From Synergistaceae bacterium (GTDB lineage: Bacteria; Synergistota; Synergistia; Synergistales; Aminobacteriaceae), in the NCBI GenBank assembly GCA_017540085.1, contig JAFYBQ010000001.1, positions 1 through 64,000 of the forward strand: 64,000 nucleotides of DNA. Direction: 5' to 3'. The notes beneath the pieces were generated by a model. That model ran no database searches, was not told where the DNA came from, and was given only the letters and a program-made list of their open reading frames with translations. Position 1 is the first letter of the stretch. The number at the start of each line of letters is the position of its first letter. This document shows positions 5,743 through 13,904 of this stretch, piece by piece. A program made the translations under genes and the position numbers.

Positions 5743-5770
5743 TAATATTGCCTCACCGCAAAGCCGATAT
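5743..5770 (+). promoter_or_regulatory. Sigma-28 (FliA)-type promoter upstream of the fliD-like gene
   Basis: TAATATTG (5743-5750) and GCCGATAT (5763-5770) are separated by 12 bases. They resemble the flagellar sigma-28 boxes TAAAGTTT and GCCGATAA (usual spacer about 11). The site lies 41 bases upstream of ATG 5812, and the gene has a strong AGGAGG Shine-Dalgarno. The rest of the 5571-5811 gap shows no gene. Confidence 0.55.
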
Positions 5771-5811
5771 ATTTTACAGGATAATCTTCACACGACAGGA
5801 GGTTAAATCAC

Positions 5812-8800
5812 ATGGCATCAATGAGCGTGTCAGGAATAGTTTCCGGCATGGACTGGGAGAGCATGATTGACGAGATAATCACAAACGCCAGCAAGCCAGC
5901 ACAGCCGCAAGTAGCAAAGAAAACTGACCTGACCAACAAGAAATCACTCTTTGAGGAAATGAAGACGATGATGAACAGCCTTCAGTCCTCATTGTCGCCG
6001 CTCAAACTGCCGTCAACCTACAAGGCCAAAGAAATCGAAATTGAACGCCTCGACAGCACGAAATCCTACAAGGGAGTATTAACCGCCACAGTAAACGCAG
6101 ACGCGGAAGTAAATGTGTGGGACGTTGAAGTGAAGCAGCTTGCCTCAGCTCAGACGAACCGCTCAAAGCAGATTACAGCCTCGAACCTTAACAGCACATT
6201 AAGCGGGGTAACAGGCTCAACGCTCTACATTGAGGCGGGCGGGCAGAAAATCGGCGTTGAGGTGAAATCATCCGACACGTTAGAGTCTCTCAAGTCCCGG
6301 ATTAACACGACGTTGAAGACGCTCGACAATCCGATTCATGTTACGGCCTCAGTTGTCGACAGCAAATTGATACTCAAGAGCGACTATACCGGCCTGGGAG
6401 CATTCACGGCCAGCGAGACGATAAATTACAGCTCCAACGGCTACAACACGCTGACGGGCTTCACAGTGAGCGATGATACCCGCGAGAACGTCAAAATCAC
6501 AAGCGGCTCAACGACATATACATACGGCACCGATTACGTGATAGCCAACGGCAACGAGATACGATGGAAGAAGTTTGACCAGAGCAAAGAAGTCGCGCTT
6601 GATGACACCGTAACGGTGAAATACACAATGGCCGCTGATGATGTCTACACGAACAAAGGCACATACGGCACAAAGGAAGCGAACACATCAAGCTTCAACG
6701 TAATCGACAACGGGACGATAGCCAGCCGTGTGAAGATTGTTGATGATAATGGCAAGACATACACATACGGCAAGGACTTCAAGATAGTGAACAGCAAAGT
6801 AGTGTGGCTTGAAGAGGAAGAATCCTACACGAATGAGCCTAGCTCCTACACAGTGAGCTACACGAACACGGCGCAGAAGAGTTACACGGCTTCGGGGACA
6901 AAGGCCAGCGCAACATCAACACCAGCCTCCTACACAGTTCAGTACACGGATGATATTCTCCCGTCAACAGCAATCACTTACGGTCGGAATGACGACACAT
7001 ATTCATACATCAAGATAACAGCGGGAAGCATTACGACATTCAGCGGAATGACAGCCCTTGACGGTGTAAGCTCCGTAACATCAAGCGGAAAAACTTACCT
7101 CACGTTTGATGATGACAGTGAGCTGAAAATAAACATTAACGGTACTGATTACGTTTACGGCAGGGATTACGTCATAAGGAAGGGTGCTTCAAGTGATGAA
7201 ATGTTCTTTGTGCCGTATTTCAACTCATCATCAGAAATAAATAATTACCTGACAGCCGCCGGAAAAAACGCGCCGGACGGAGTTCCGATAAGCCCCCGCA
7301 CCGATATTCAGGCGGAAAATCCCGGCACATTCTCATACACACACACGACAACGATCGACAGCACCGACACAGCGTCAATATCAACGCTCCTCAACGACAG
7401 CAGCACCGACACAAGCAATATAGTAATCCTGAAGTCAGACGGGACGCAATACACAGAAGGCACCGACTACCACATATCAAACGGCGAAATAGTATGGACA
7501 TTGCCGAATGACACTACCGACATAACAATGTCTCAGTTTGCCGAGCTTCAGACGAAATACGCCGAGGCTGCCGGGTCTGAGCTTTCTACGGTTACATTGA
7601 TTGACGGGAACGGGGTTCTGCGGACATATGTTGCCCCGGAAGATAACAGCTTGTTCACGATGAGCGCGGGCGGAGTCAATTACGAATACGGAAGGGATTA
7701 CGTTCTCAGGGTTAATGACGCTGGAACAGGCTACCGTTTTGACTGGCTCATAGATGGAAGCGACACGATAGCTGACGCAAATACAACCGTTGCAACATAT
7801 GCTGCCTCAAAGAACATCAGTACATCATCATGGAAGGCAGCTCCGGCGGAAGGCACAGCGTATAATTTCGGCTTCAGCTATAACTACGCCTCAACCCCAT
7901 TAACAGGCACAGTCAACAAGACCGACACGGACAAATCGCTCTCAGGAGCTTTGAGCGGGGCAAGCGTTCCCAGTTCGGCATACGGCACAAGCGCATTGAC
8001 GATTACGGACGGCACAAAGACATACTCATACGGCACGGATTACGTGATAAACTCATCGGGCGTGATAACGTGGCTTGACCAGGCCAGCACGACTCCCGCG
8101 GCATATACAGCGACATACACATTCAGCGGAAATGCATCAAAGACAGTTTCAGGATTGGGAGCTTCAACGACTCTGACAAACGTAACCGGGCTTCCTACGC
8201 TAAACAGTATGGGCGTAAAAACGTTCACGAGCGGCGGACAATATTATGTTGACGAAGCAGAGGGCAAAGCGGCTTTCACTCTCACTGACTCGGACGGAAA
8301 CACATACGAATACGGCAAGGATTTCGCGCTGAGAAGCACATCGCTTACAGGCGGTACATTGCAGCTTGCCTTTTCACACTACAGCAGCTGGCCTTCAGAC
8401 TTCAGCAATCAGGACAAGACAAGGACAATCCCGACAACAGCGAATCTAACGCTGACTTACAACAATTCGGTTTCAGCAACAGTAACATCTTCCGAGACCG
8501 TAGAAGACGCATTAGGCTTCCTCCCGTCAAATTACAGCAAACTTACAATATCAGACACGAGCGGAAATGCTTACACCGAGAGCACAGACTACACTATAGA
8601 CACGTCAACGGGCGCAATAACATGGGCAACTACAACAACAGCCCCGACTCACCCCAATGACGGAGTCGGCTACACTCTCACATACGAGGCATTTGACGCA
8701 ATAACAGCTACAGGCACAACAGACGGCTCATCATCGCAGGAAGTCTCAATCACGGTTGACTCAGGCTACGGGAATTACGGCGGCGACAAACGGAGCTATG

Positions 8801-10848
8801 AGCAGATACTCAGCGACACAGGACTCACAAGCTCTTCAAGCTCTGATGACTGGGCAAAATATTTCACTCTCGAAACGACAGACGGCGCAACAACATATAC
8901 ATACGGCACTGATTACACGATAATACAGGGCAGTGATACCGACAGCAGCACGGGCGAGCATAATGTCATGATTAACTGGCTGAACGTTCCCGCAAACGGT
9001 ACAAGTTTCACGCTCTCATACGGTGGCAACAGCGGGGAAGTCCTCACAACTGACGGCGTTAAACGCTCGGCAACCGACACTATAACCGGCTCACCTCTTG
9101 CCACAGCTTTTGACGGCGGCACGAACACAATCACTTACGCCGGGAAAACTTACTACGAGGGCGTAGACTTTGACATAACGAAAGATGATGACGGCAACGC
9201 GACAGTAACATGGATTTCTGACGATGACGGCGGATATGAATGGTACTATCCCACGTCAAATTCATACTACACAATCACGCACACAGACGACAGCGGCAAC
9301 ACAACAAGCTATAACGCCTACAGGACATCAAGCGCGACTCTCGACATGTCAAAATACGGAATGAAAACGGCGGGAGGCTCAATCAGCGTTCAGTACGGGG
9401 AAGGACTTTCGTACAGGCTTGACGCGGCTGCGGACTCCGAAACAGGCTACACGGGCTATGACGTAATCAAAGGCACTTACGGAATCGACATTACCCCGAC
9501 AACAGGCGGAACATACACATTCAACTGGGTTGCGCCGACTCTGACTTCACGCTCTAATCTCCCCTCATACGGCGAGGAATTGACGGTCTCATACGAATAT
9601 GACGCTAACACGTTTGACTTGAGCGATGACGGGGACGGGGATTTGTTGCAGGCACTGGGCTTCACGAAATCGGACGGCACATATGACGACTACACAGCCG
9701 CAAAGAACGCAATACTCGTGATTGACGGAGAACAGGAAGTAGAGCGCGACTCCAACGACATCGGCGCGGATTACGAGAACGAGCTAATCAAAGGCGTAAC
9801 AATGCACCTCAAAGGACTCGGCGAGGTCTCACTAGACATTTCACAGGACGCGGAAAAAGCCGTAGAGTCGATTCAGACGTTCGTAGACAGCTACAACGAT
9901 CTCATGTCGTGGATGAACACCCGCATGACAGAAAGCCAGCTTGACGAGGACACAAAAGCCACCGTTGACTCAGACGACTTCCGAATGAGATGGGGACTCC
10001 TTCACGGCAATTCCCTTCTCCGAAACACAAAAAGCCAGATGAGGAGTCTTACGTCGCAGAATTTCGCGTTCTCGTTCACTGAGCGCAAAAGCTCCGAGGA
10101 AGTTTACGGCACAATGTCATTCAACGGTCTCCGAACATCGTCAACACTGAGACTCAGAATCGGCACAAAGTATGTTGATGTTACTATTGACCCGTCAGAC
10201 ACGATAGAGACAATCGCAAAAAAAATCAGCGATGACACAAAGGGCGGGCCAATGAACGACATATATTATGACGACAACGGCAACAAGCTCGCGACTCCCC
10301 TCCTGAAGGCATACGCTGAGAATGACAAGCTCGTGATACAGTCAACAAGCAACGACGAAATCACAATGTCAGGCTCCGCGGCAATGAATGCCCTGAAAAT
10401 GAATTACACCTACAAGGGACTCTACCAGATCGGAATCGAGTCAACAGCAACAGATTACGGCAAGAGCGGAGAGCTTGAATTTGACGCAAGCGAGTTCATG
10501 GAGGCGTTAGAGGACAACCCGGACGAAGTGCAGTCCCTCATGATGACGTTTGTGACTCAGTTCGACACGTGGACAAAATCAATGCTCAACAGCTCGTCAA
10601 GCGGTGAGACTTCCGGCACGCTGACCCGCGAAATCGAGAACATTCAGAGCCGTATCGACAGCATTAACGAGTACTTAGAGAAATACCAGGAGAGACTCGA
10701 CCGAATGGAGGAGAATTTACGCACACGCTACGGGAACACCGAGACACAGTTCGCGAAACTCTCACAGCAGGCTAACTCAATCGCGGCCATTCTCAACCAG
10801 CTTAACGGATCAGCCCAGGGCGGCGGATACGGTCAGACAAGCTCATAG
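5812..10848 (+). CDS. fliD: Giant FliD-like flagellar filament cap protein (hook-associated protein 2)
   Basis: This protein has 1678 aa, whereas FliD is usually about 450-700. The N-terminus (MASMSVSGIVSGMDWESMI, then a coiled-coil-like stretch and KLPSTYKAKEIE) is a FliD_N domain at about residues 1-115. The C-terminus from about residue 1329 (VESIQTFVDSYNDLMSWM, LTREIENIQSRIDSINEYLE, then a heptad coiled coil) is FliD_C. FliD caps the growing filament and assists flagellin folding outside the cell; no signal peptide is expected because export is through the flagellar type III apparatus. Between the two domains lie about 1050 residues built from degenerate repeats centred on Y-x-Y-G-x-D-Y-x-I...W, rich in Thr/Ser/Tyr. 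No other flagellar gene lies in the window. The frame is intact over 5 kb, which argues for function. The insert probably forms surface-exposed domains. Confidence 0.85.
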   Translation: MASMSVSGIVSGMDWESMIDEIITNASKPAQPQVAKKTDLTNKKSLFEEMKTMMNSLQSSLSPLKLPSTYKAKEIEIERLDSTKSYKGVLTATVNADAEVNVWDVEVKQLASAQTNRSKQITASNLNSTLSGVTGSTLYIEAGGQKIGVEVKSSDTLESLKSRINTTLKTLDNPIHVTASVVDSKLILKSDYTGLGAFTASETINYSSNGYNTLTGFTVSDDTRENVKITSGSTTYTYGTDYVIANGNEIRWKKFDQSKEVALDDTVTVKYTMAADDVYTNKGTYGTKEANTSSFNVIDNGTIASRVKIVDDNGKTYTYGKDFKIVNSKVVWLEEEESYTNEPSSYTVSYTNTAQKSYTASGTKASATSTPASYTVQYTDDILPSTAITYGRNDDTYSYIKITAGSITTFSGMTALDGVSSVTSSGKTYLTFDDDSELKININGTDYVYGRDYVIRKGASSDEMFFVPYFNSSSEINNYLTAAGKNAPDGVPISPRTDIQAENPGTFSYTHTTTIDSTDTASISTLLNDSSTDTSNIVILKSDGTQYTEGTDYHISNGEIVWTLPNDTTDITMSQFAELQTKYAEAAGSELSTVTLIDGNGVLRTYVAPEDNSLFTMSAGGVNYEYGRDYVLRVNDAGTGYRFDWLIDGSDTIADANTTVATYAASKNISTSSWKAAPAEGTAYNFGFSYNYASTPLTGTVNKTDTDKSLSGALSGASVPSSAYGTSALTITDGTKTYSYGTDYVINSSGVITWLDQASTTPAAYTATYTFSGNASKTVSGLGASTTLTNVTGLPTLNSMGVKTFTSGGQYYVDEAEGKAAFTLTDSDGNTYEYGKDFALRSTSLTGGTLQLAFSHYSSWPSDFSNQDKTRTIPTTANLTLTYNNSVSATVTSSETVEDALGFLPSNYSKLTISDTSGNAYTESTDYTIDTSTGAITWATTTTAPTHPNDGVGYTLTYEAFDAITATGTTDGSSSQEVSITVDSGYGNYGGDKRSYEQILSDTGLTSSSSSDDWAKYFTLETTDGATTYTYGTDYTIIQGSDTDSSTGEHNVMINWLNVPANGTSFTLSYGGNSGEVLTTDGVKRSATDTITGSPLATAFDGGTNTITYAGKTYYEGVDFDITKDDDGNATVTWISDDDGGYEWYYPTSNSYYTITHTDDSGNTTSYNAYRTSSATLDMSKYGMKTAGGSISVQYGEGLSYRLDAAADSETGYTGYDVIKGTYGIDITPTTGGTYTFNWVAPTLTSRSNLPSYGEELTVSYEYDANTFDLSDDGDGDLLQALGFTKSDGTYDDYTAAKNAILVIDGEQEVERDSNDIGADYENELIKGVTMHLKGLGEVSLDISQDAEKAVESIQTFVDSYNDLMSWMNTRMTESQLDEDTKATVDSDDFRMRWGLLHGNSLLRNTKSQMRSLTSQNFAFSFTERKSSEEVYGTMSFNGLRTSSTLRLRIGTKYVDVTIDPSDTIETIAKKISDDTKGGPMNDIYYDDNGNKLATPLLKAYAENDKLVIQSTSNDEITMSGSAAMNALKMNYTYKGLYQIGIESTATDYGKSGELEFDASEFMEALEDNPDEVQSLMMTFVTQFDTWTKSMLNSSSSGETSGTLTREIENIQSRIDSINEYLEKYQERLDRMEENLRTRYGNTETQFAKLSQQANSIAAILNQLNGSAQGGGYGQTSS
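6470..9600 (+). repeat. Degenerate tandem protein repeats inside the FliD-like gene (about 11 units)
   Basis: Units of roughly 75-130 residues recur with the core T-Y-x-Y-G-x-D-Y-x-I followed by a short turn and I-x-W. Examples of the core are TYTYGTDYVIANGNEIRW near residue 235, TYTYGKDFKIVNSKVVW near 317, VNYEYGRDYVL near 624, TYSYGTDYVINSSGVITW near 738, TYEYGKDFAL near 832, TYTYGTDYTI near 1030 and TYYEGVDFDITK near 1112. Units are divergent in sequence and length, so this is an old domain array rather than a recent minisatellite. The fold is not recognised. Confidence 0.8.
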
Positions 10849-10868: not shown

Positions 10869-10899
10869 CGCTCCCTGAAAAATTCGGGGGGCGTTTTTT
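10869..10899 (+). terminator. Intrinsic terminator after the fliD-like gene
   Basis: The stem CGCTCCC (10869-10875) pairs with GGGGGCG (10887-10893) with one G-T wobble, followed by six T. Confidence 0.75.
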
Positions 10900-10963
10900 G
10901 TTGCCGTCAAAATCTGCTACAATGTTCAGCAAATTTCAATCTAACTTTTCAGGAGTGATATTT

Positions 10964-12418
10964 ATGTTGGCTCTGATTAAGTTAAGCCCGGTGCTTGTTC
11001 TCGGCATTCTTATGCGGCTTGGGCTTGATATTCTTCTGGCGGCTCCTCTCTCGATGGTCTACGCGATCGCAGTCGGAATGATTTTCGCTCACGTCAAATT
11101 TTCCGACCTAATGGACGCGGCAATAGAGAACCTGAAGCGTATTCTGATTGTCTTCCTGATTTTGCAGATGGCCTACGCTGTCGCAACGTGCTTCATGGAG
11201 ACGGGAGTCGCGGCTGAAATAATCACCCTCGCGCTGAATCTCGGAATAACGGCGAAATTAATCCCCGCTGTAGCCCTCATTGTTACGGCGATACTCTCAA
11301 TCGCGACAGGAACATCATGGGGGACATTCGCGGCCTGCGCTCCGATATTCTTATGGCTGAATCACATTGTCGGCGGAAGTGTCATCCTCACAATATCGGC
11401 CATTGCGGGCGGGTCATGCTTCGGGGACAATATCGGCCTCATCTCAGACACTACGGTCGTAAGCTCAAGCCTTCAGGGTGTCGCCATAACTGACAGGGTA
11501 CGGCATCAGGGCGTATGGTCGTTCTTGTGCCTTGTGTGCGGCGTGGCGGCGTTCTACTTTGCGGCGGTAAACATGGGACTTACTGATACTGTAGGGAATC
11601 CGAACGAGGCAATCGCGCAGATTCCGCAGTCAGTATGGGACGCATTATCGGAGAAAAGAGCGGCGGCGGTTACCCTGCTGAAACAGGTTCAGGCGGGCGG
11701 ATTGTCGTGGTACATGGTGCTTCCGTTAGTCGCTGTTCTCATTCTTGCGGGAATGGGCGTAAACACTCTAATTTGTCTGGGCGCGGGGATTCTCGGCTCT
11801 CTGATTTGCGGCTACATTGCCGGGACTGTTACGGACATCATGAAATTTCTTGAGATGGTACAGTCGAGTTTTGCTGACGCAGGAAGCTGGGTTATCGTCA
11901 TGATGTTATGGATTGGTGCGTTCGGCGGAGTAATGCGGAGAATGGACGCTTTCGGGGCAATTGCGGCTCTCGTCATGAAGTGCGTACACAGCGTGAGGCA
12001 GTTAATGTTCGCGAACGGGTTATTATGCCTCGTGGGAAATGCTGCTCTTGCTGACGAAATGGCGCAGATAGTAACAATGTCCCCTATCATCAAAGACCTT
12101 ACCGACAGACACGTGAAGGGCAGCGAAAAGGCCATGTACAAACTTGCGCTGAGGAACGCTACATTTGCTGACGCGATGGGCGTATTCGGCTCTCAGTTAA
12201 TCCCGTGGCACGTATACTTAGCTTTCTTTGTCGGAATCGTTTACGCCGTTTATCCTGTTGCAGAAGGCACCGTAACAATCGCTGATATTATCATGCACAA
12301 CTATTTAGCGTGGATTGCTGTGCTGTCGATGCTGATTCTTACGCTGACAGGGCTTGACAGATTCATTCCTCTTTTCCGTCTTCCTTCCGAACCTGAAGTA
12401 CAACTCGTAAAGGACTAA
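10964..12418 (+). CDS. NhaC-type Na+/H+ antiporter family protein (first tandem copy)
   Basis: This 484-aa protein has about 11-12 predicted membrane segments. The conserved core GTSWGTFAACAPIFLWLNH, AIAGGSCFGDNIGLISDTT and a C-terminal half repeating the pattern fit the NhaC/PF03553 antiporter family, which exchanges protons for Na+ or couples them to organic acids at the cytoplasmic membrane. The start is ATG 10964 after AGGAGT; a longer upstream reading is not supported. It is followed 19 bases later by a close paralogue in the same orientation, most likely co-transcribed. Substrate cannot be fixed from sequence: some family members exchange malate/lactate rather than only H+. Confidence 0.85.
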   Translation: MLALIKLSPVLVLGILMRLGLDILLAAPLSMVYAIAVGMIFAHVKFSDLMDAAIENLKRILIVFLILQMAYAVATCFMETGVAAEIITLALNLGITAKLIPAVALIVTAILSIATGTSWGTFAACAPIFLWLNHIVGGSVILTISAIAGGSCFGDNIGLISDTTVVSSSLQGVAITDRVRHQGVWSFLCLVCGVAAFYFAAVNMGLTDTVGNPNEAIAQIPQSVWDALSEKRAAAVTLLKQVQAGGLSWYMVLPLVAVLILAGMGVNTLICLGAGILGSLICGYIAGTVTDIMKFLEMVQSSFADAGSWVIVMMLWIGAFGGVMRRMDAFGAIAALVMKCVHSVRQLMFANGLLCLVGNAALADEMAQIVTMSPIIKDLTDRHVKGSEKAMYKLALRNATFADAMGVFGSQLIPWHVYLAFFVGIVYAVYPVAEGTVTIADIIMHNYLAWIAVLSMLILTLTGLDRFIPLFRLPSEPEVQLVKD

Positions 12419-12437: not shown

Positions 12438-13904
12438 ATGCTTTCATTGTTGAAACTGAGTCCCGTTATAGTTTTGGGTGTGCTGATGAACTCGGCGATA
12501 GGCCCCGGACTCGATATACTCATCGCCACGCCTCTGGCCATGCTCTACGCGACAGCAATCGCCCTCATCTTTGCCCGCGTCAAACTCTCAGCCGTCATTG
12601 ACTCTGCTGTACAGAATATGAAGGGAGTCGTGCTAGTTTTCCTGATATTGCAGATGGCTTATGCGGTCGCAACATGCTTCATGGAAACGGGAGTAGCCGC
12701 AGAAATCATCACAATAGCTCTTTCACTCGGTGTAACAGCAAAGCTCATAGCCGTAATCGGCCTCATCGTAACCGCAGTACTCTCCGTAGCAACGGGAACA
12801 TCATGGGGAACATTCGCGGCCTGCGCTCCGATATTCTTATGGCTGAATCACATTGTAGGCGGCTCAGTCGTCCTCACAATTTCGGCGATTGCGGGCGGGT
12901 CATGTTTCGGCGACAACATCGGCCTCATTTCAGACACAACGGTAGTCAGCTCGACTCTTCAGGGCGTGTCAATCACCGACAGAGTCCGTCATCAGGGCGT
13001 GTGGTCTCTTCTTTGTCTGGGACTGGGCGCGGCGGCTTTCTACGCGGCGGCTGTGATGATGGGACTTCCTGACACGGCCGGGAATCCTAGTGAAGTAATC
13101 TCTGCGATACCTGACTCAGTGTGGGCGGCTTTGTCGGAGAAGAGACCTGCGGCAGTTACGCTCCTAAGACAGGTTCAGGCCGGGGGATTATCGTGGTACA
13201 TGGTGCTTCCTCTCGCGGCTGTGCTGATACTTGCGGGATCTGGCGTACACACTCTGATATGCCTTTGCGCGGGGATATTCGGATCGCTTTTCTGCGGGCT
13301 TTTCGCCGGGACTGTTACGGATGTCATGAAGTTTATCTCTATGGTTCAGGCGAGCTTCTCTGACGCAGGAAACTGGGTAATCGTGATGGTGCTGTGGATT
13401 GTAGCGTTCGGCGGTGTGATGAGCAGCATGGACGCATTCAGGCCGGCTGCCGGATTAGTCGTAAAGTTTGCGCGCAACGTAAGACAGCTCATGTTCGCGA
13501 ACGGCGTTTTGTGCCTGATAGGGAATTTCGCGCTCGCTAACGATTTTGCGGAGATTGCTACTATCTCGCCTATCATCAAAGATTTGACGGAGAAAAACGT
13601 AAAGGGCAGTCCCGAAGCAATGTACAAACTTGCGCTGAGGAATGCGACTTTTGCCGACGCTATGGCGGTTTACGGCTCGCAGTTAATCCCGTGGCATGTA
13701 TTCATGGCGTACTTCATGGGTATAGTGTATGCCGTCTACCCTGCCGCAGAAGGTACAGTAACAATCATGAATGTAATCACGCATAACTATCTTGCGTGGA
13801 TTGCTGTAGTGTCAATGCTGATATTGACGCTTACGGGGCTTGACAGGTTCATTCCGCTGTTCCGTATTCCCTCTGAGCCTGAAGTCGAGCTGATACGCGA
13901 ATAA
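12438..13904 (+). CDS. NhaC-type Na+/H+ antiporter family protein (second tandem copy)
   Basis: This 488-aa paralogue of the preceding gene has the same membrane topology and the same ISDTT core. The segment around GTSWGTFAACAPIFLWLNH is nearly identical at the DNA level (compare 11308-11400 with 12795-12888), while the ends differ more, for example PGLDILIATPL near the N-terminus. The start is ATG 12438 after an AGGGAAG site. Two adjacent genes in one unit could be separate homomers or could form a heteromer; nothing in the sequence decides this. A terminator follows. Confidence 0.85.
   Translation: MLSLLKLSPVIVLGVLMNSAIGPGLDILIATPLAMLYATAIALIFARVKLSAVIDSAVQNMKGVVLVFLILQMAYAVATCFMETGVAAEIITIALSLGVTAKLIAVIGLIVTAVLSVATGTSWGTFAACAPIFLWLNHIVGGSVVLTISAIAGGSCFGDNIGLISDTTVVSSTLQGVSITDRVRHQGVWSLLCLGLGAAAFYAAAVMMGLPDTAGNPSEVISAIPDSVWAALSEKRPAAVTLLRQVQAGGLSWYMVLPLAAVLILAGSGVHTLICLCAGIFGSLFCGLFAGTVTDVMKFISMVQASFSDAGNWVIVMVLWIVAFGGVMSSMDAFRPAAGLVVKFARNVRQLMFANGVLCLIGNFALANDFAEIATISPIIKDLTEKNVKGSPEAMYKLALRNATFADAMAVYGSQLIPWHVFMAYFMGIVYAVYPAAEGTVTIMNVITHNYLAWIAVVSMLILTLTGLDRFIPLFRIPSEPEVELIRE

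Follow-up and report, generated by a model that had tools for sequence, protein, structure and literature searches.

We identified a giant flagellar filament cap protein, FliD, in the window, that is, the whole stretch of 64,000 nucleotides from a Synergistaceae bacterium that was analyzed, and found that its enlargement is an array of one repeated domain in the FliD head, set between real FliD ends. We put a probability of roughly 0.6 on the reading that the protein is a functional cap whose head would carry a closed loop of Ig-like beads and use it as an adhesin at the tip and/or a variable surface. The gene, its upstream signals, and the parts that identify it as fliD are as follows:

5743..5770, + strand: predicted sigma-28 (FliA)-type promoter, TAAT (5743-5746), N16, GCCGATAT (5763-5770)
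5797..5802, + strand: Shine-Dalgarno AGGAGG, read from the sequence and kept as CAGGAGGTT in orthologs
5812..10848, + strand: fliD, giant filament cap protein of 1,678 aa, from the intact ORF and its Pfam ends
5842..6153, + strand: FliD_N (PF02465, E 5.5e-16), residues 11-114, where the D0/D1 legs begin, with the first half of D2
9700..10143, + strand: first stretch of FliD_C (PF07195), residues 1297-1444
10402..10761, + strand: second stretch of FliD_C, C-terminal helices of D1/D0, from the profile match and the helices in an ortholog model

The clear FliD_N and FliD_C ends reported in an earlier note, made from the sequence alone, both passed the curated Pfam cut-offs and in the right order, with 59.4 bits against 24.8 for FliD_N and 95.8 against 25.4 for FliD_C (E 3.5e-27 over its two stretches), and the NCBIfam FliD models matched the same two ends of the protein. 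A further domain (residues 1421-1521, about 100 aa) splits FliD_C in two. The frame described as intact over 5 kb held, with 1,678 codons read without a break and the frame also open in the genus's 25 other complete orthologs, and so did the two- to three-fold excess over the usual size: the protein is about 3.4 times as long as the 481-503-aa FliDs of the order and 2-2.5 times as long as the 655-838-aa ones. For the fold check, a complete ortholog of 1,099 aa (L095) was modeled in place of the window protein. The model (mean pLDDT 76) showed a beta-rich middle flanked on either side by long helices, and its best Foldseek matches in PDB were the FliD caps 6sih, 9gsx, and 9gnz at a probability of 1.00 (E 5.5e-14 for 6sih_A), the matched caps being those of Campylobacter, Salmonella, and E. 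coli. With the model matching solved FliD caps in this way, the ends did not align better to non-flagellar proteins, an outcome that had been considered beforehand.

We scored the promoter motif TAAT-N16-NCCGATAA over 120 bp upstream of the gene, with shuffled upstream regions as the control. At least 10 of 11 points were reached in 23 of the 26 orthologs, at nearly equal spacing to the gene, and in 0.08% of the shuffled regions. The fliD gene stands alone, since its neighbors are metabolic or transport genes, with sugar and inositol-type genes upstream and two NhaC-type antiporters downstream. The two antiporter genes lie in tandem directly 3' of fliD (10898-12418 and 12438-13904) and are similar to each other; NhaC-type genes adjoin fliD in many relatives, and the genes upstream of it are not conserved. 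A search of the genome, which is 99.8% complete, did not recover a second FliD_C, and its flagellar genes include four flagellin genes and those for an FlgL-like protein, FliA, FliG, and FliS, so that a full flagellar system and sigma-28-type control accompany FliD, as befits a filament cap. Judged by its sequence and genomic setting, the window protein is the genome's only FliD and probably a functional one.

The flagellin ORFs of the genome measured 927 aa (L143, contig C9), 846 aa (L144, C25), 1184 aa (L145, C17), and about 569-593 aa (L141, C30), and large flagellins are general in Synergistota. The FlgL-like hook-filament junction protein (L146, near position 39229 of contig C26) lacks the FliD repeat and, at 1,250 aa, is several times the usual size.

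We searched for repeats with a profile built from 14 distant orthologs, leaving out the window protein and its close kin to avoid circularity. The profile found ten repeats, with E values between 2e-4 and 5e-14 for a database of 1,000 sequences, and it matched nothing in 500 shuffles of the array, which rules out chance or composition as the source of the repeats. The units, with the counterparts of repeats 1-3, 5, 7, and 10 among the 25 other orthologs, are the following:

6475..6648, + strand: repeat 1, residues 222-279, by repeat profile; conserved base unit with a counterpart in 24/25 orthologs, always first
6715..6885, + strand: repeat 2, residues 302-358, by repeat profile; conserved base unit in 21/25, always second
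7108..7362, + strand: repeat 3, residues 433-517, by repeat profile; variable, counterpart in 4/25
7405..7584, + strand: repeat 4, residues 532-591, by repeat profile
7639..7824, + strand: repeat 5, residues 610-671, by repeat profile; counterpart in 19/25
7984..8142, + strand: repeat 6, residues 725-777, by repeat profile
8260..8484, + strand: repeat 7, residues 817-891, by repeat profile; variable, counterpart in 4/25
8527..8709, + strand: repeat 8, residues 906-966, by repeat profile
8848..9045, + strand: repeat 9, residues 1013-1078, by repeat profile
9112..9306, + strand: repeat 10, residues 1101-1165, by repeat profile; conserved base unit in 25/25, always last
9415..9615, + strand: degenerate eleventh repeat, about residues 1202-1268, E 0.3

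The count of about 11 degenerate repeats given in the earlier note is fair, since the eleventh is present but degenerate. The repeat stretch of about 1050 residues claimed there was right in describing a large array, but its span had to be corrected to residues ~222-1165, or to 1268 with the degenerate unit. The repeat was not found in other proteins of the same genome. As read from the sequence, the array architecture is well supported.

Alignment with a repeat-less relative of 496 aa (L003) located the array within FliD and revealed a second, smaller insertion:

6184..6426, + strand: Flagellin_IN-like domain, residues 125-205, probably D3 (PF07196 at 19.9 bits, short of its 22.7-bit cut-off; repeat-less relatives aligned)
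6397..9603, + strand: whole insertion, residues ~196-1264, by alignment with L003
10072..10374, + strand: smaller insertion within the D1 bundle, about 100 aa long (residues 1421-1521), by alignment, with a weak Flagellin_IN/ubiquitin-like signal

The entry point of the array falls between the adjacent residues 207|208 of L003, corresponding to window residues 195 and 1265, and every repeat series, be it a single unit or the full array, enters the FliD head at this same point. The domain bearing the loop is probably D3, which Pseudomonas FliD carries as an insertion in a loop of D2 (PMC8533109). The array leaves and re-enters the head through a single loop, so the beads would form a closed loop with no free arm, a feature absent from the earlier note, provided that the host domain folds as it does in relatives. 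The D1-part insertion of about 100 aa is common to most Synergistota FliDs longer than 650 aa, and in the window protein its place resembles that of C. jejuni D4 (PMC7316729). In two relatives from a different family, a single copy of the repeat (residues 620-677 of L068 and 744-805 of L174) sits in this D1-side insertion instead of the head loop, so the repeat domain has entered FliD at two places.

A Pfam search of the whole protein returned no model covering the repeat, and DUF4815 was absent among the matches. Single repeats (40 searched) gave weak matches to DUF4815 (15/40 at E up to 1, best 1e-4), to PHROG 807, annotated as "major tail protein with Ig-like domain" (16/40, best 1e-6), to PHROG 877 (31/40), and, in Pfam, to the Sgo0707_N2 adhesin domain (8/40 at E up to 1, best 0.0013). 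Against PDB, the best match of the repeat profile was the phage phi812 DUF4815 protein 9euf (E 4.7e-4), with an alignment running through a Y-x-x-G-x-D-F...I-x-W...P-x-x-G core. DUF4815 (ORF65 of phi812, a baseplate protein) and PHROG 807 share with the repeat the core Y-x-x-G-x-D-(Y/F)...I-x-W...P-x-x-G-x-x-Y-x-V-x-Y, but these are phage proteins without a tandem array and their scores are weak (best 1e-4 and 1e-6, respectively). The N2 domain of Sgo0707, from Streptococcus gordonii, was matched weakly over most of the repeat and did not reach significance (PDB 4igb, E 0.12), and Sgo0707 is a wall-anchored Gram-positive adhesin, unlike a flagellar cap. The repeat therefore resembles, weakly, the Ig-like domains of phage tails and adhesins, and no Pfam model describes it.

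Structure prediction had been proposed as a check; AlphaFold2 on residues 197-1308 gave a beta-rich model with strands throughout (mean pLDDT 81, pTM 0.42). Foldseek of the whole array gave weak matches, many of them to Ig arrays (titin, PrgB, DSCAM) and also to Sgo0707, with no confident match (TM near 0.06); the whole-array comparison was uninformative because a chain of beads is aligned rigidly. From the weak sequence matches and the model with pTM 0.42, an Ig-like sandwich is the likeliest candidate for the fold of the repeat. A scan of viral contigs with the FliD end and a tblastn of the array against 50,697 phage records both found nothing, and a phage origin of the array was set aside.

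We identified the repeat in 95 of 188 Synergistota genomes. Among the FliDs retrieved from the phylum, those of 481-503 aa had no repeat, those of 655-792 aa had 1-2, and those of 838-1,087 aa had three or four, and two Synergistaceae MAGs (L105 and L107) encoded FliDs of 977 and 1,058 aa with three to four repeats; the sample names of these two resemble those of termite-gut sets. The close relatives of the window protein came from ruminant-gut Synergistaceae MAGs (goat, sheep, deer, reindeer), some labeled Fretibacterium, and the 26 complete FliDs of this genus ranged from 1,066 to 2,113 aa with 4-13 repeats, their length tracking repeat number (r = 0.97). The comparison across Synergistota thus set the ruminant-gut genus apart as exceptional. 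The suspicion that the repeat might be a widespread known FliD domain was borne out in part, since 1-4 copies occur at the same site in many other Synergistota FliDs, and failed in that Pfam holds no model of it. On a tree of the conserved ends, the state of at least five repeats needs two changes, versus about 20 with shuffled labels. By the distribution of 0, 1-2, 3-4, and 4-13 units, the domain is an old one in Synergistota whose multiplication took place in the window protein's family. An assembly artefact was ruled out because the same architecture recurs in 25 other complete, independent orthologs from MAGs produced by several groups; odd short ones were contig-end cuts or chimeric, as in L038 and L084, where argininosuccinate synthase is joined to a FliD end.

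The large cap might also be a mechanical adaptation to large flagellins (849-1,184 aa), making room for a thick filament or sealing it, and the same genome does encode large flagellins (927, 846, and 1184 aa) together with the 1,250-aa FlgL-like protein. However, flagellins of 756-1,006 aa are found in members of the order whose FliD measures 481-503 aa, so large flagellins can do without a giant FliD, and giant flagellins occur in many phyla (PMC6248924). A link of the giant cap to large flagellins is unlikely, and the mechanical explanation as a whole appears very improbable to us.

Across orthologs, repeats 1, 2, and the last keep a constant position relative to the ends of the array, and the middle units come and go, for example repeats 3 and 7. 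In a closed loop, conserved units at the array ends would make a conserved base with a changing tip. Only 2 of 218 repeats had their best match in their own protein, which rules out recent tandem duplication and indicates old units, with losses and gains that involve whole blocks. The dN of the array was above that of the ends in all 12 species pairs (ratio 1.05 to 6, mostly 2-6), dS was similar where unsaturated, and the dN/dS of the array came to about 0.2-0.3 in the two pairs of lowest divergence. The array therefore evolves faster than the ends yet stays under purifying selection, and its faster evolution may reflect relaxed constraint and not selection for change.

This pattern bears on the idea of neutral growth, in which the FliD head is dispensable and functionless beads piled up in a tolerant loop. 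Capping in Pseudomonas does not need the head domains (PMC8533109), one tolerant site is used phylum-wide, and copy number changes often, all of which this idea would explain. Yet every genus ortholog keeps at least 4 units in open frames of 3.2-6.3 kb, the base units recur in 21-25 of the 25 orthologs, nonsynonymous change is purged, and a 181-kDa export substrate is costly; because the units are conserved, neutral growth fits poorly, and we hold it to be quite doubtful.

The array may instead be a variable shield or decoy and not an adhesin, with changing units altering the tip antigens or the receptors of phages and predators. Middle units gained and lost between close species and an array dN several times that of the ends agree with such a role, as does the composition of the array, which is acidic (pI 4.1) and whose 28% S+T could be glycosylated. 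The array is also Tyr-rich and lacks cysteine. Against a pure shield, the array dN/dS is well below 1, there was no recent duplication (2/218, as above), and a handful of cap subunits per filament would leave thousands of flagellins exposed. We consider a shield without adhesion rather unlikely, albeit less so than neutral growth.

The reading that we prefer remains a functional cap with a bead-bearing head. Expression of FliD would depend on the flagellar sigma factor and its export on the flagellum, and its helical ends (D0/D1) would serve, like those of every FliD, as cap legs, which fold flagellin as it joins the filament. In the outer head, probably D3, one loop would have taken up a chain of Ig-like beta domains, the chain having grown to 4-13 units in the ruminant-gut genus and to ten in the window protein. 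Each subunit, presumably one of five, would then display a closed bead loop with conserved units at the base and exchangeable ones at the tip. An Ig domain is about 4 nm long, and at this length per domain the loop could reach at most about 20 nm. The filament tip would gain a contact surface, whether an adhesin (to mucus, feed particles, protists, or epithelium), a variable surface altering what phages, antibodies, or grazers see, or both. A large head insertion should be tolerable because capping is the work of D0/D1 and the D2-D3 head of Pseudomonas FliD is dispensable and exchangeable, even for the larger Helicobacter head (PMC8533109). The D4 domain of C. jejuni FliD lies away from the cap cavity (PMC12221982) and is proposed to bind heparin (PMC7316729), and P. 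aeruginosa FliD is given as a mucin adhesin (Arora et al. 1998, as cited in PMC8533109). We favor a tip adhesin or variable surface because of the conserved base, the changing tip, and the Ig-like relatives in adhesins and phage tails, and, with 4-13 domains among close relatives, the flagellar tip probably presents a surface for contact or shielding that changes fast. Adhesion or evasion of host recognition, as suggested in the earlier note, is plausible. The more specific proposal of a modular adhesin, made of five closed loops of Ig-like beads that have a conserved base and an interchangeable tip, change by gain and loss of whole domains, and set host or substrate specificity through their bead composition, is possible at somewhat less than even odds.

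The FliD (HAP2) of E. coli, Salmonella, and Pseudomonas has in common with the window protein the conserved ends, the helical legs, the head between them, the sigma-28-type promoter, and the single genomic copy, but measures about 470 aa against 1,678 aa, the difference including about 1,070 extra residues in the head. Extra domains are likewise inserted in the FliDs of C. jejuni (D4) and H. pylori (D4-D5), where they number one or two, whereas the window protein has ten or eleven of one kind in one head loop; no sequence relation of the window insertions to these extra domains was detected. Giant flagellins (>1,000 aa) have been described in many phyla, Synergistetes included, in a paper that does not mention FliD (PMC6248924). 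There, as in the window FliD, the outer domains of a flagellar axial protein are enlarged, but flagellin is present in thousands of copies, whereas each filament tip has one cap complex. We found no FliD of such size or with an array of repeated domains in the searched literature. Extra FliD head domains are thus already known and the tenfold array is new as far as the searched literature shows; the window FliD is an extreme variant of a known trend.

The occurrence of 0, 1-2, 3-4, and 4-13 units at one site, on closely similar cap legs, amounts to a natural experiment on the purpose of the FliD head, and it indicates that an exported protein can grow a closed-loop array fixed at its two ends. 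Filament tips could display large surfaces of modular build, which would be to the cap what tip adhesins are to pili, and the hosts of such caps are abundant but uncultured gut bacteria.

Two further observations were made among the relatives. In one genome (G087), FliD (L162) is apparently split over two frames, through a frameshift or a sequencing error. The roe deer MAG RGIG4915 contains two different FliD genes, encoding proteins of 1,138 aa (L104) and 1,066 aa (L106), which represent either a duplicated cap or a mixed bin.
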